Source: Saprospiraceae bacterium (GTDB lineage: Bacteria > Bacteroidota > Bacteroidia > Chitinophagales > Saprospiraceae). From it: DNA of 64,000 nt. The notes below the pieces were generated by a model. That model worked only from the letters and a program-made list of their open reading frames with translations, was not told the origin of the DNA and searched no databases. Where the stretch lies: the NCBI GenBank assembly GCA_030729925.1, contig JANQWK010000099.1, positions 62,001-126,000 of the forward strand, in the 5' to 3' direction. Positions 1,358 to 48,048 of this stretch are shown in pieces. Both the position numbers and the translations under genes were made by a program. Positions within the stretch are counted from its first letter, which is position 1; every line of letters begins with the position of its first letter.

Positions 1358-1391
1358 CAAAATTATTTTTGCGGCGGGTAATTTGTCCAAA
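1358..1391 (-). promoter_or_regulatory. Bacteroidota-type promoter for the haem-binding/CsgG unit
   Basis: On the minus strand a TTTG (1388-1391) is followed after 22 bases by TAATTTTG (1358-1365), which fits the TAnnTTTG -7 consensus of the primary sigma factor in this phylum. The expected start of transcription near 1351 gives a leader of about 47 bases. The spacer is slightly longer than the usual 19-21 bases. Confidence 0.55.
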
Positions 1392-1419
1392 AGTTTTGTG
1401 GCTTATCACCTATAAATCA

Positions 1420-1515
1420 TTGATTTTCAATACTTAAAAACACAGGTGCAAGGCACCTTAAAGTGCCTTGCACCTAGATTACCCCTATTAATCCCACAGC
1501 TTTTCAAAAGGTAAC
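1420..1515 (+). repeat. dispersed palindromic repeat, copy 1 (subfamily A)
   Basis: The copy begins with the small palindrome TTGATTTTCAA. A central inverted repeat follows (1444-1475), with perfect 13-base arms AGGTGCAAGGCAC and GTGCCTTGCACCT around CTTAAA. The tail GATTACCCCTATTAAT runs on to AAAAGGTAACC, and its TTACC and GGTAA ends can pair as a second stem. The same architecture recurs near 26.3, 34.9 and 47.7 kb. This copy lies behind the DUF2202 stop codon and just upstream of the haem-protein promoter. Confidence 0.85.
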
Positions 1516-1544
1516 CATCAGATAGGGATCCTATTTAGCAATAA

Positions 1545-2207
1545 TTAATGGCTACAGGCTTTACCATTTCCACCTTTGCAGTTACCTCCCTGACAATCGC
1601 CTTTACAGCCCTCTGTTTTGTGCTTACCATTGCCTTTATTTTGGCTTACGATGGCCTCAAAATCGGCCTGAGCCATTAATTGGGGCTGGTAACCTGAACC
1701 CAGTTGTCGGGTAAATGCCCTGAGGTGGTTGTGTGAAGCCTGCAACAAATTGCCGAGGGTTTGCCGGACACCCGCATCGGTTTCCTCGGACATCATATCC
1801 TTAAGGTCTATAATGTCTTTTTCCTCTATCCATGCCCCAACTTTGAGGGCCTCTTCAAGGGAAACCGTGCCCTGTGCGGTCAATTTGTCGTACAGTTCCT
1901 GCATCGCTGTCACTGAAAAAACGCCGGGTTGATCCTCGTTGAAGGCGGCAGGTAAAACATAGCCCTTTGTGTCAAAAATGGACTTCACCTCATTGATATG
2001 ATGCCCCTCTGACCGAGCAATATTTGCAAAAATCTCTTTGTTCCATTGGGTATGGAAGTATGTATAAACATCGCGAGCCAGTTTTTCCTCTTCCAGCATC
2101 ATCATCCACGATTGCTCCGTAGGTGCTTCGGAAGGTACAACAAGCCGTCCTGGCAATAAGAGCAACAAAGGAAGGAGTGCCGGAAAAATGCTTTTAATCG
2201 TTTTCAT
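1545..2207 (-). CDS. DUF2202 ferritin-like protein with Cys/His-rich tail
   Basis: The 220-residue protein has a signal peptide and one DUF2202 domain. Conserved helix motifs are visible: EEEKLARDVY, SEGHHINEVKSI, EEKDIIDLKDM and ASHNHLRAFTRQLG. The family has a ferritin-like four-helix fold with Glu/His residues placed for a di-metal site; its physiological reaction is not established. The last 30 residues form an unusual Gly/Lys/Cys tail ending CKGGNGKACSH, with four cysteines and two histidines, which looks able to bind metal. The gene follows the second DUF2202 gene by 15 bases, so the two are probably cotranscribed. Confidence 0.85.
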   Translation of the reverse strand: MKTIKSIFPALLPLLLLLPGRLVVPSEAPTEQSWMMMLEEEKLARDVYTYFHTQWNKEIFANIARSEGHHINEVKSIFDTKGYVLPAAFNEDQPGVFSVTAMQELYDKLTAQGTVSLEEALKVGAWIEEKDIIDLKDMMSEETDAGVRQTLGNLLQASHNHLRAFTRQLGSGYQPQLMAQADFEAIVSQNKGNGKHKTEGCKGDCQGGNCKGGNGKACSH

Positions 2208-25407: not shown

Positions 25408-26226
25408 ATGAACCAAAGTAAACTCATCACTACGGCCATCTTCGTATTTTTTGGCCTTATCCTCATTTTATCCTTTTCCAGCGCTACTTTCCTCACCATT
25501 GAAGCGGGTGAGCGCGGGGTGCTCTTCAAAAGATTTGGTGGGGGTATTGACAAAGAAAGAACCTTCACACCCGGTTTTCATGTTATTGCACCCTGGAACA
25601 AGATGTATGTCTATGATGTCCGGGAAAAACAAGTAGAAGAATCCATGACGGTATTGTCCAGCAATGGTCTCAACATCAGCGTGGACGTAACCGTCAGGGT
25701 CAACCCCTATTACACCAAAATTTCCAACCTGCACGAGCAGTTTGGTTCTGACTACCTCAATTCTCTGGTACGACCCGAAATTCGCTCCTCTGTACGCTCC
25801 ATCATTGGTCAGTTTACCCCGGAAGAATTGTACTCTACCCGACGTAACGAAGTCCAGGAGCTGATTCAGCAAGACCTCATGAGCAATCTGGAAAGCAACT
25901 TCATAGAACTTAAAGCCACGCTCATCCGAGACATTACGCTGCCGGATAAAGTCAAAACCGCTATCGAAGAAAAAATCCAGGCAGAGCAGCTTGCCCTCAA
26001 ATACGAATTTATCCTGGACCAGGAAAGAAAAGAAGCAGAGCGAAAAATTATCGAGGCCGAAGCCAAAGCCAAAGCCAACCAGATCCTAAACGCAAGTCTT
26101 ACCTCCAATATCCTGAAAGACAAAGGCATAGAAGCCACCCTGGAACTTACCAAATCGCCCAACAGCAAGATCATTATCGTCGGCGGTGGTGAAGACGGGC
26201 TTCCGTTGATCCTGGGGAATAATTAA
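25408..26226 (+). CDS. SPFH/prohibitin-family membrane protein
   Basis: The ATG at 25408 is taken as start. The 272-residue protein has one N-terminal hydrophobic helix (TAIFVFFGLILILSF), then an SPFH domain with ERGVLFKRFGGGIDKER and a helical region rich in Glu and Ala (LDQERKEAERKIIEAEAKAKA). The C-terminus is Gly-rich (IIIVGGGEDGLPLILGN). Prohibitin-like proteins form rings or scaffolds at the membrane and often modulate the protease FtsH. It stands alone, with palindromic repeat copy 2 behind it. Confidence 0.92.
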   Translation: MNQSKLITTAIFVFFGLILILSFSSATFLTIEAGERGVLFKRFGGGIDKERTFTPGFHVIAPWNKMYVYDVREKQVEESMTVLSSNGLNISVDVTVRVNPYYTKISNLHEQFGSDYLNSLVRPEIRSSVRSIIGQFTPEELYSTRRNEVQELIQQDLMSNLESNFIELKATLIRDITLPDKVKTAIEEKIQAEQLALKYEFILDQERKEAERKIIEAEAKAKANQILNASLTSNILKDKGIEATLELTKSPNSKIIIVGGGEDGLPLILGNN

Positions 26227-26244
26227 AAAAATAACGTTAAGTTT

Positions 26245-26339
26245 TTGATAATCAGTGCATTATTAATCAGGTGCAAGGCACCTTAAGGTGTCTTGCACCT
26301 GATTACCCTTATTAATACCTCGACATCCAAAAAAGTAAC
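26245..26339 (+). repeat. dispersed palindromic repeat, copy 2 (subfamily B)
   Basis: The left mini-palindrome is TTGATAATCA. The core at 26269-26300 is a 32-base inverted repeat centred on CCTTAAGG, with a single mismatched pair (G opposite T). The tail GATTACCCTTATTAATACC runs to AAAAGTAAC. It lies between two convergent gene ends (SPFH and the 137-residue protein), so it may also end transcription from both sides. Confidence 0.85.
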
Positions 26340-26383
26340 GAAGTTTGGGGTAGTATCTCAAAAATGATTTTGGGAGGGTGCTA

Positions 26384-34804: not shown

Positions 34805-34825
34805 CGCCTAACTTTAAACTTGTTA

Positions 34826-34861
34826 AGCCCCCGAGAGTTTTTGCTCCCGGGGGCTTTTTTT
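34826..34861 (+). terminator. intrinsic terminator of the molybdoenzyme operon
   Basis: AGCCCCCGAGAG (34826-34837) and CTCCCGGGGGCT (34844-34855) pair with one mismatch around TTTTTG. The run of T continues to 34861. It lies about 20 bases after the stop codon. Confidence 0.9.
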
Positions 34862-34895
34862 GTGCCCTTGAGTGACAAAAAAACACTTTAATATC

Positions 34896-34991
34896 TTGAT
34901 TTTCAAAATTTTAAACATCAGGTGCAAGCCACCTTAAGGTGTCTTGCACCTGATTACCCTTATTAATACCACGGCCAGCCAAAAAGTAACC
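34896..34991 (+). repeat. dispersed palindromic repeat, copy 3 (subfamily B)
   Basis: The left mini-palindrome is TTGATTTTCAA. The core at 34920-34951 is a 32-base palindrome centred on CCTTAAGG, with one mismatched pair (C opposite T) and otherwise the same arms as copy 2. The tail GATTACCCTTATTAATACC runs to AAAAAGTAACC. It lies between the terminators of two convergent genes. Confidence 0.85.
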
Positions 34992-35048
34992 CCAAAATGG
35001 CTAAATGTTTTTATCGTTCTTGTCTTTTGATGCAAGTGGAAAGGAGGC

Positions 35049-46505: not shown

Positions 46506-47691
46506 TGAAGCAATCGCCCAATGGCGGAGCGATACACCGGGAGCAGATCGGGCGATTCACCTGAATAATGCCGGAGCGGCACTGATGCCGGTTTCTGTAT
46601 TACAAGCCATGACGGAGCACCTGTCGCTGGAAGGTCAGATCGGGGGATATGAAGCCGCTGCTGAAGCTGCTGTTGGAATCCGCAATTTTTACGAAGTTAC
46701 GGCGCGGTGTATCGGTGCCCAAGCGCGGCAGATTGCCTTTATGAGTAGTGCCACAGAAGCCTACAACAAAGCACTATCCGCTATTCCGTTCCATTCCGGA
46801 GATGTGATCCTTTGCACACAAGACGATTATGTTTCCAACCAGATTGCCTTTATACAATTGTCTCGACAACGGTCGGTTCGCCTGATCCGCATACCCGATT
46901 TGCCGGGCGGTGGTACAGACCTGGATGCGCTCGAACAACTGCTTCGGGTGCATCGCCCCAAGCTGGTTGCGGTAACCCACATGCCTACCAACTCCGGTCT
47001 GATCCAGGACGCAGCTGCTGTAGGCCAACTTTGTCGCCAGTATGATAGCTGGTACCTGCTCGACGCTTGTCAGACCTTCGGGCAGCTCCCCCTCGACGTG
47101 GCAGCCCTTCACTGTGACTTTCTCAGTGCTACGTTCCGAAAATTTATGCGCGGCCCCAGAGGAGCAGGCTTTTTGTACACCTCCGACCGGGTGCTGGAAG
47201 CCGGACTGGAACCCCTCTTTCCCGACCTCCACGGCGCCACCTGGACTGGCCCGGACGAATATGTCTGTCGCAACGATGCCCAAAGATTCGAGCAATGGGA
47301 AAAACCCTACGCCCTGGTACTCGGAAGTGCCGCTGCCGTGGCATACGCCGATGCCATTGGCCTCGAACGCATACAACAACGCATCCAGTCACTCGCAGCA
47401 ACACTCAGAACACAACTAAGCGCACTACCGGGTATCCATAACCTCGACCGCGGCGCCCAACTCGGTGGCATCTGCAGCTTTACCCTGCCACACGCAGAAG
47501 GCCAATGGCTCAAACAACAACTCGATCAGCAAAACATACACAGCTCCCTGCAACTCCGCGATGGCGCCCTCCTCGATTTTCAGCGAAAAAATGCAGCCTG
47601 GGCCATTCGCCTGTCGCCACACTATTATAATACCTTCCACGAAATCCAAACGACAACCGAAGCCTTCACCGAAATCCTAAAACGGCTTTGA
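46489..47691 (+). CDS. class V aminotransferase-fold PLP enzyme
   Basis: The 400-residue protein has the fold-type I signature with the PLP lysine in SATFRKFMRGPRGAGFLY and an Asp/Gln pair in YLLDACQTFGQLPLDV. The N-terminus AIHLNNAGAALMPVSVLQ matches the isopenicillin-N epimerase/selenocysteine lyase-like group. It could be a desulfurase, epimerase or lyase; no dedicated cysteine pocket loop of IscS type is visible. The start overlaps the YkoF-like gene by 17 bases. Confidence 0.85.
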   Translation: MTPITDEAIAQWRSDTPGADRAIHLNNAGAALMPVSVLQAMTEHLSLEGQIGGYEAAAEAAVGIRNFYEVTARCIGAQARQIAFMSSATEAYNKALSAIPFHSGDVILCTQDDYVSNQIAFIQLSRQRSVRLIRIPDLPGGGTDLDALEQLLRVHRPKLVAVTHMPTNSGLIQDAAAVGQLCRQYDSWYLLDACQTFGQLPLDVAALHCDFLSATFRKFMRGPRGAGFLYTSDRVLEAGLEPLFPDLHGATWTGPDEYVCRNDAQRFEQWEKPYALVLGSAAAVAYADAIGLERIQQRIQSLAATLRTQLSALPGIHNLDRGAQLGGICSFTLPHAEGQWLKQQLDQQNIHSSLQLRDGALLDFQRKNAAWAIRLSPHYYNTFHEIQTTTEAFTEILKRL

Positions 47692-48048
47692 GGAGTTGTT
47701 TTTTAAGTCTAAAATACTGATTATCAAACCTTAAAACATCAGGTGCAAGGCACCTTAAAGTGCCTTGCACCTGGATTACCTCTATTAATACCCCAAAATC
47801 CCAAAAGGTAACCCAAACATCGCCTTAACAATATCCCCCACCCCTGTCTTGCATTGGCCGTTTTCTTCAAACGCGCTGTTTGTGGCTTGTAAACCGAATA
47901 GCTCACATCCTCTGGTTCATGCAGAACATGTTAAGATCGCTACTACATAAACATTTTTGAATAAATTAAAATAATTTCAAATTTTTTGTTTTTTGTATTT
48001 TTTGTGTTAAATTGCAGGAAATTTTATTGCCAACAAAAAAAAGAACAC
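47692..48048. other. 357-base intergenic region upstream of the S24 regulator
   Basis: It contains repeat copy 4 near its start. The 47820-47950 part is of unremarkable base composition. The last 80 bases are very AT-rich with three TTTTTTG words in a row (47990-48010), which may include the S24 promoter. The palindrome AACATGTT near 47930 is an operator candidate only. No gene was found. Confidence 0.6.
47717..47813 (+). repeat. dispersed palindromic repeat, copy 4 (subfamily A)
   Basis: The left mini-palindrome is TGATTATCA. The core at 47741-47772 is identical to copy 1 (13-base perfect arms around CTTAAA). The tail GATTACCTCTATTAATACC runs to AAAAGGTAACCC, again like copy 1. It lies 26 bases after the stop codon of the class V aminotransferase. 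Confidence 0.85.

Follow-up and report, generated by a model that had tools for sequence, protein, structure and literature searches.

A lineage-restricted intergenic hairpin repeat with a symmetric IHF-like arm and helically phased A/T flanks in a Saprospiraceae genome

What is the hairpin-bearing repeat of roughly 100 bases that occurs four times in a single 64,000-nucleotide stretch of Saprospiraceae DNA? The stretch (G000:C99:62001-126000, hereafter the window) belongs to a genome, G000, of 3,743,877 bases in 104 contigs. An earlier sequence-only reading had placed four copies between genes, and this observation was confirmed, as all four lie between called genes on the + strand. They are also the only matches in the window to a pattern for the palindromic core allowing up to 3 mismatches, compared to 0 matches in 100 shuffles. 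A covariance model of the family built from 34 copies, R1, was used for the window matches and delimits the repeats at 1414-1516, 26239-26340, 34890-34991, and 47711-47813.

The same core pattern was applied to the whole genome, a search that the sequence-only reading had proposed, and gave 198 matches per strand, with 0 for the pattern written backwards. Because the core is a palindrome and matches both strands, this corresponds to ~198 copies and not to twice that number, dispersed between genes across 3.74 Mb. The tail pattern alone produced 150 genome matches (control 0), and the best 150 of 2344 first-look candidates scored with R1 all had E values of 2.6e-10 or lower. From the fetched loci, 157 distinct matches were collected (4 of them weak, below 45 bits), of which 153 have a recognizable palindrome and 143 have both anchors; most family counts below cover roughly three quarters of the ~198 copies. 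Further stretches of the same genome (L293-L298), each with a copy or part of one, were kept outside the statistics. Copies are single, with a mean of 15.2 kb and a minimum of 759 bp for the 107 gaps between 171 listed places (~27 copies are unlisted), and the dimers and clusters that are frequent for GTAG REPs were not found among these 171 places. The longest contig seen, C60 (179 kb), has one copy among those listed (171 of ~198), compared to the mean spacing of ~15 kb elsewhere.

The central palindrome is 32 bp long with 14 stem pairs, AGGTGCAAGGCACC-TTAA-GGTGCCTTGCACCT, and the near-perfect hairpin described earlier for the window copies is present at 1444..1475, 26269..26300, 34920..34951, and 47741..47772, all on the + strand. 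Folded as single-stranded DNA, these four hairpins have energies of -15.7 to -19.4 kcal/mol (z -6.3 to -10.3). Copies 1 and 4 belong to what we call class A, carrying a C.A mispair at pair 13/18, while the mispair is at pair 9/22 in copy 2 (G.T), where the stem extends outward as TAATCAGG..CCTGATTA, and in copy 3 (C.T). This pattern holds across the family: 126 of 153 stems contain exactly one mispair, 22 none, 4 two, and 1 three. In nearly all cases it is either C.A at pair 13/18, found in 44 copies, or a mispair of varying kind at pair 9/22, found in 84, and the two sites are never mispaired in the same copy. Class A copies are mispaired at 9/22 in 0 of 43 cases compared to 83 of 108 other copies (Fisher p=2.5e-20, for copies that are not independent by descent). 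The search itself did not select against double mispairs, since positions 9 and 22 were wildcards in the core pattern and position 18 was R. Perfect palindromes may be under-represented, because contig ends occur in or near copies and a run of N lies inside one palindrome. Class A as a young clade was ruled out, as its arms, variable blocks, and tails have diverged no less than those of the other copies. Pair 5/26 covaries between C-G and G-C and is broken in 2 copies. An alternative reading of the palindrome as two adjacent AGGTGC-N3-GCACCT sites was set aside in a hand comparison, in which a single long hairpin explained the mispairs better. The constraint fits a structure that must form, though not too well, and the one-mispair rule provides a clean quantitative handle on the selection of hairpin-forming DNA. 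For REP dimers, an excerpt of PMC3733652 discusses how hairpins are removed by SbcCD.

With position 0 set at the first A of AGGTG, the left arm spans -31 to -7 and reads YAAnnnnTTGATWATCAAnnnnTTR. The small palindrome noted there in the earlier reading is correct and, beyond that description, contains the IHF consensus WATCAAnnnnTTR on both strands with one central base in common; this consensus is printed independently of the family in an excerpt of PMC10380432. With at most 1 mismatch, the right half matches in 101 of 151 copies and the left half in 102, compared to 0.3-0.4% of shuffled arms. In the window, the arms lie at 1413..1437 (copy 1, where the double motif is imperfect), 26238..26262, 34889..34913, and 47710..47734 (all +). 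The two CAA steps of the arm are 9 bp apart, and 9 bp is the kink spacing for IHF and HU. Two matches to the HU/IHF family (PF00216) are present in G000, in genes at C33:31973-32242 and C96:60438-60704. The arm motif also occurs apart from the element when up to 2 mismatches are allowed. Own DNA amounting to 364,851 bases, with elements masked, yields 14 occurrences (shuffled mean 0.2), several of which belong to copies that the masking did not fully cover, and 744,538 bases from G001, a genome of the same genus, yield 6 (shuffled mean 1.2). On the other side of the palindrome, the tail consists of GATTACCCTTATTAATACC, about ten variable bases, and then AAAAAGTAACC, giving GATTACC..AAAAAGTAACC overall; the window tails are at 1476..1516 (AGATTACC..GGTAACC), 26301..26340, 34952..34991, and 47773..47813 (all +). 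The second stem once suggested for the ends of the tail was not borne out, as all 4 window tails fold within the shuffle range (z -0.8 to +1.1).

The strongest new signal lies beyond the conserved repeat. In the 143 copies with both anchors, the A/T fraction of the flanking DNA oscillates with the helix, peaking at about -39.5, -50.5, -61.5, and -72 on the left and at +5, +16.5, and ~+27 after GTAAC on the right. The left W/S spectrum has its maximum at 10.75 bp with a power of 0.27, compared to a null maximum of 0.032, and the right flank reaches 0.061 compared to 0.021; in both, 0 of 500 register shuffles were as strong. Phasing fades near -73 and near +31 beyond the repeat, which yields a footprint of ~176 bp. 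The whole footprints inferred for the window copies are 1371..1547, 26196..26370, 34847..35022, and 47668..47844 (all +), with statistical limits taken from the family W profile. Most A/T stretches are runs of a single base: of 150 copies, 40 have AAAA and 49 have TTTT at -41..-38, and TpA is rare. At position -39, 150 of 151 copies have A or T, whereas position -12, inside the repeat, varies (A 46, T 51, G 45, C 9), suggesting that the flanks are maintained by selection. They could also reflect a strong preference in the choice of insertion site. In the 23 copies whose left flank is coding, phasing is weaker, with peaks of 0.58-0.66 and troughs of 0.41-0.50. Left and right phasing are not mirror images around the palindrome center in this family (r=-0.29 at lag 0 for distances 38-92, and -0.72 for 54-92).

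Gene context was compared using genes from a simple ORF caller, which gave a gene on either side, within the fetched DNA, for 119 of the 151 copies. Called genes are overlapped by more than 30 bp in 2 of these 119. The neighbors are convergent for 45 copies, co-directional for 52, and divergent for 22. The convergent fraction exceeds that of the gene pairs in the window (9 of 46, p 3e-6) and of the fetched-locus pairs with element pairs removed (40 of 200, p 5.5e-6), with a difference of only p 0.005 when element pairs are kept (85 of 319). Gene 3′ ends make up 142 of the 238 flanking sides, at least one neighbor presents its 3′ end in 97 of the 119 copies (called genes), and the median distance is 42 bp to a 3′ neighbor and 172.5 bp to a 5′ neighbor. 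Co-directional copies show no clear orientation relative to their neighbors (22 +,+ compared to 30 -,-).

Relatives were searched by models via the best-ranked candidates per genome. In G001, which has a median nucleotide identity of 75% to our genome over 13 alignments, no element was found by DNA search or by R1 among the best 20 of 1451 candidates, and a profile search of its 744,538 bases gave 0 matches even at E 10, while the same search recovers 4 of 4 window copies. For 21 copies with both flanks syntenic in G001, the element is present at 0 of 21 G001 sites, and the own intergenic gap is longer than the G001 gap at 18 of 21, by 95-1584 bp; the intergenic DNA is too diverged for exact element boundaries to be read from these empty sites. 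At one locus (L179, G000:C94), a ~1.4-kb gene that looks transporter-like by eye lies to the right of the element and is missing at the syntenic G001 place, with gaps of 1592 and 8 bp, respectively. A DNA search of relatives matched five, each by the left arm only, and the perfect core had 0 exact matches elsewhere in the searched genome contigs. In 200-kb stretches of each of two further genomes, G007 and G032, no repeated hairpin family was seen, and G007 contains other short repeats in 7 regions. An origin from phages or plasmids was rejected, as no match was found in phages or plasmids and the core pattern had 0 exact matches in viral contigs. A wider palindrome pattern had two viral-contig matches (L329 1687-1711 and L330 2332-2356) on sequences with ORFs that look RNA-phage-like by eye. 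These were taken as chance and not as family members, one of them lying inside the longest L330 ORF.

When R1 was run over 199 genomes of the family, one other match appeared, at one place in a genome of a second genus, G005 (E 6.4e-4). There the left arm is kept and the palindrome is different, TAGTCGCCAGGCATCTATAGATGCCTGGCGACTA. BLAST of this element within G005 (E up to 0.1) gave 47 match rows at 24 places, mostly covering the palindrome only. In 11 of 16 copies, the best match to TTGATTATCAA (7-11 of 11 letters) stands exactly 28 nt before TCGCC, with 27 nt in one copy and a position elsewhere in four; the side of the arm was chosen by the better match, a procedure that favors finding an arm and does not favor a fixed distance. 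TAA or TAT precedes the arm at a constant distance in the 11 copies with fixed spacing. The outer stems in G005 are copy-specific yet complementary, pairing perfectly over a mean of 6.3 bp compared to a cross-copy mean of 2.3 bp (0 of 2000 permutations, 14 copies). The flanks are again phased, with 0 of 500 shuffles as strong on the right, 0 of 500 on the left, and 1 of 500 on the left beyond the arm, at longer best periods of 11.5, 12.0, and 13.25 bp (13-15 copies), and here the two flanks do run in mirror phase around the palindrome (r=0.61). The one-mispair rule is not seen in G005, where, of 16 cores, 7 pair perfectly and 6 carry one mispair, and the conserved tail was not seen by eye in the 16 copies read. 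In G005, TAG is frequent at the stem edge and GTAG occurs at times, but paired within the stem. Many G005 contigs end at its palindrome.

A joint model of 8 own and 8 G005 elements, R2, matched 24 of 398 family genomes at E up to 0.01, including these two, with ~4 expected by chance. Palindromes of the AGG[CT]A..TGCCT kind occur in 10 of 24 checked loci of other genomes, although R2 selects for such palindromes, and several of the 10 lack a recognizable arm. In one genus, g4 (L302, L303, L325), arm and palindrome occur together at a spacing 10-12 bp shorter by hand count, about one helix turn, while the arm spacing at L301 (G297), also counted by hand, departs from this one-turn rule.

The element is thus a real, abundant, lineage-specific intergenic one that falls outside REP, BIME, MITE, and Rfam families by the tests made. 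Taking the observed anatomy, phasing, one-mispair rule, 3′-end bias, and reappearance of this architecture in another genus as a starting point, we infer a set of proteins, a wrapping, and an effect on supercoiling. Our preferred reading, to which we assign a probability of roughly 0.45, is that the element shapes DNA architecture where transcription units end, being bent and wrapped in a nucleoprotein complex and working in the manner of the enterobacterial RIB/BIME elements without being a member of them. A dimeric protein of the HU/IHF family would bind and sharply bend the symmetric left arm, and the phased A/T tracts on either side would allow ~170-180 bp of DNA to be laid on a protein surface. 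The central palindrome would be recognized as a DNA hairpin, a cruciform, or a symmetric duplex, and the complex would pin or absorb supercoils between neighboring transcription units. This explanation is the best one because it accommodates the symmetric IHF-type bend, the phased A/T on both sides, and the placement at gene ends together. Several findings speak against it, namely the absence of mirror phase in the own family, the longer periods in G005, the occurrence of the arm motif outside the element, the weaker phasing in coding left flanks, and the failure of the one-mispair rule in G005. Since the element is absent from G001, its function would not be needed across the genus.

The strongest rival is a REP-like non-autonomous mobile hairpin that prefers bent targets, spread by an HUH or other transposase (lost by now, distant, or unsampled) that reads the single-mispair hairpin, and we regard this as a serious though tentative possibility. 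Under it, the phased flanks arise because insertion takes place next to bent DNA. It is favored by the ~198 dispersed copies, by the unfilled syntenic sites in G001 and the longer own gaps, by the conservation of the hairpin with covariation at pair 5/26, and by the copy-specific complementary outer stems in G005; mobilization by RAYTs has been hypothesized for GTAG REPs in the excerpted texts of PMC3733652 and PMC2817692. However, a search for nearby RAYT/IS200-type transposases, as had been suggested for this repeat, found no RAYT beside a copy in the 104-contig assembly. The sole Y1_Tnp match there is cut off by a contig end, and its 1826-bp locus holds no copy. A tblastn search with this Y1_Tnp fragment found no relative in the other fetched loci, though distant ones would escape it. 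The ORF itself (L031 1462-1821, G000:C20, - strand) is RAYT-like, is cut by the contig end, and has an N-terminal part that runs into a GAQKDV tandem repeat. Even the closest pair among 143 copies shows 5 differences over 68 non-palindrome positions, so that none are near-identical, arguing against a recent burst. Similar pairs are nevertheless in excess over column-shuffled data, indicating some shared ancestry among copies. A or T at -39 in nearly every copy would also be hard to keep without selection. A MITE, the other mobile form suggested from sequence, was rejected, as the ends of the repeat are not inverted copies of each other and no target-site duplication signal was found in 143 copies (best direct-repeat z 3.87, no more than expected from 15050 word/offset tests), a result that also weighs against the mobile hairpin. 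What remains of the original interpretation is its REP-like half: a functional or mobile element and not chance, in view of the copy number, the intergenic position of 117 of 119 copies, the restriction to one lineage among the genomes compared, and the bias to 3′ ends. The concern that the four window copies might be the only ones, with no relatives in other genomes, is answered by the many copies here and by the family of the same architecture in another genus. REP-like mobility could be the origin of the copies and is compatible with an architectural function.

A hairpin acting as RNA in 3′ untranslated regions, where it would stabilize or terminate transcripts, is improbable in our estimate. 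The placement at gene ends and the stable stem (calculated with DNA parameters) agree with it, and REPs are argued to be mostly transcribed in an excerpt of PMC3733652. Against it, co-directional copies show no clear orientation, and the mispairs (CC, GG, GA, CA) are not biased to wobble pairs. Phased A/T flanks are needless for an RNA, and the strongest new signal is one of DNA shape. The family profile has no T-run after the hairpin; an intrinsic terminator was rejected because GATTACC or close variants, instead of a T-run, follow the hairpin in most copies. Membership of an Rfam family was likewise rejected, with 0 matches at gathering score over the window holding the 4 copies. An artefact of assembly or chance can practically be dismissed. 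It draws on the 28 G000 contig ends that fall inside one of the 171 listed copies or no more than 60 bp away, and on the run of N inside the palindrome of a copy at L294 938-1038, and perfect palindromes may be under-counted as hairpins appear to break short-read assemblies. However, chance is refuted by the shuffle and reversed-pattern counts for the core and by the tail-only count, and the absence of double-site mispairs cannot arise from a loss of perfect palindromes. One practical consequence is that the element marks where assemblies of these genomes break.

The proposed bent and wrapped site has close parallels among known elements. RIB/BIME-1 elements are said, in the title of a 1993 paper by Boccard and Prentki, to lie at the 3′ ends of transcription units. 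In an excerpt of PMC2817692, IHF interacts with the inter-REP part of BIME-1, and these enterobacterial elements resemble ours in being dispersed, in having an IHF site (here predicted) beside palindromic units, and in standing at 3′ ends (here of genes). By analogy, our element would most likely work in a similar way, although it differs from them by carrying a single palindrome per aligned copy where they have two REPs in inverted orientation, by the symmetry of its double IHF-like motif, by its phased A/T flanks and Saprospiraceae host, and by lacking a REP tag. REPs of the GTAG and CGTC super-families, according to an excerpt of PMC3733652, are also high-copy intergenic imperfect palindromes (20-40 bp), mostly downstream of genes and often lineage-specific. 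In contrast to them, our element has no GTAG/CGTC tag at the stem edge (positions -3..-1 are mostly [AC][AT]C, and GATTACC mostly follows the stem), no clusters or dimers among the listed copies, and no RAYT found beside a copy in the 104 contigs, and it has a longer stem (14 pairs) with an extended arm and tail.

The E. coli gyrase motif, in an excerpt of PMC6379681, has 10.75-bp periodic GC flanks over 130 bp, and BIME-2 holds gyrase sites. A BIME-2 or strong gyrase site is thus similar to our element in its ~10.75-bp periodic A/T-G/C flanks (here the left flank) and in its intergenic, palindrome-bearing DNA. Gyrase itself would nonetheless fit poorly, as the footprint of ~176 bp is longer than the 130 bp of the E. 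coli motif, which is why we name wrapping and supercoil pinning instead, and the conserved core fills the place where gyrase would cleave. Correia/NEMIS 155-bp elements and other MITEs are short dispersed repeats with an IHF site (predicted here), the 155-bp form being almost only intergenic in an excerpt of PMC2229807. Terminal inverted repeats and target duplication, as in those elements, were not seen here. The pneumococcal BOX is, like our element, a modular intergenic repeat, in an unrelated host, and its modules are not known to be an IHF-like arm plus a palindrome. Searches of open-licence papers on Saprospiraceae and Saprospirales repeats, on Bacteroidetes REP/RAYT systems, and for one exact palindrome of the wider family showed no description of the element among the entries seen, which is not proof of novelty. 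In the excerpt of RepRanger (PMC12306157), "Bacteroid" occurs once, heading a three-genome table block, and "Saprospir" is absent. The ~198 copies, the phased A/T flanks, the one-mispair rule, and the IHF-like left arm all go beyond the first, sequence-only reading.

If the bent and wrapped site is real, a repeat family could be read from sequence as ~200 wrapped-DNA sites per genome lying between transcription units, with different hairpins in different genera at such sites, and the role of REP/BIME in chromosome topology would become testable outside enterobacteria by Topo-seq and by HU/IHF ChIP-seq. A bolder extension, which we consider unlikely on present data, is a class of wrapped sites common to the Saprospiraceae as a family, with lineage-specific hairpins, a shared IHF-type symmetric bend placed at a fixed helical distance, and ~170-180 bp of phased A/T. 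Each such site would form a nucleosome-like particle pinning supercoils where transcription units end, with one-mispair tuning of the hairpin in the lineage studied here.

Within the window, a strong hairpin resembling an intrinsic terminator (CCCCCGAGAG..CTCCCGGGGGCTTTTTTT, at ~34825-34862) stands a little before copy 3. In other genomes of the family, a motif similar to the arm, TAAnnnnnTGATTWnCAnnnnnTTA, lies directly before ordinary-looking intrinsic terminators at L304 (G239), L315 (G392), and L317 (G186), and because of this placement, the arm may be a general nucleoid-protein site. At L317, the motif and terminator directly follow what by eye resembles the 3′ end of a tRNA.
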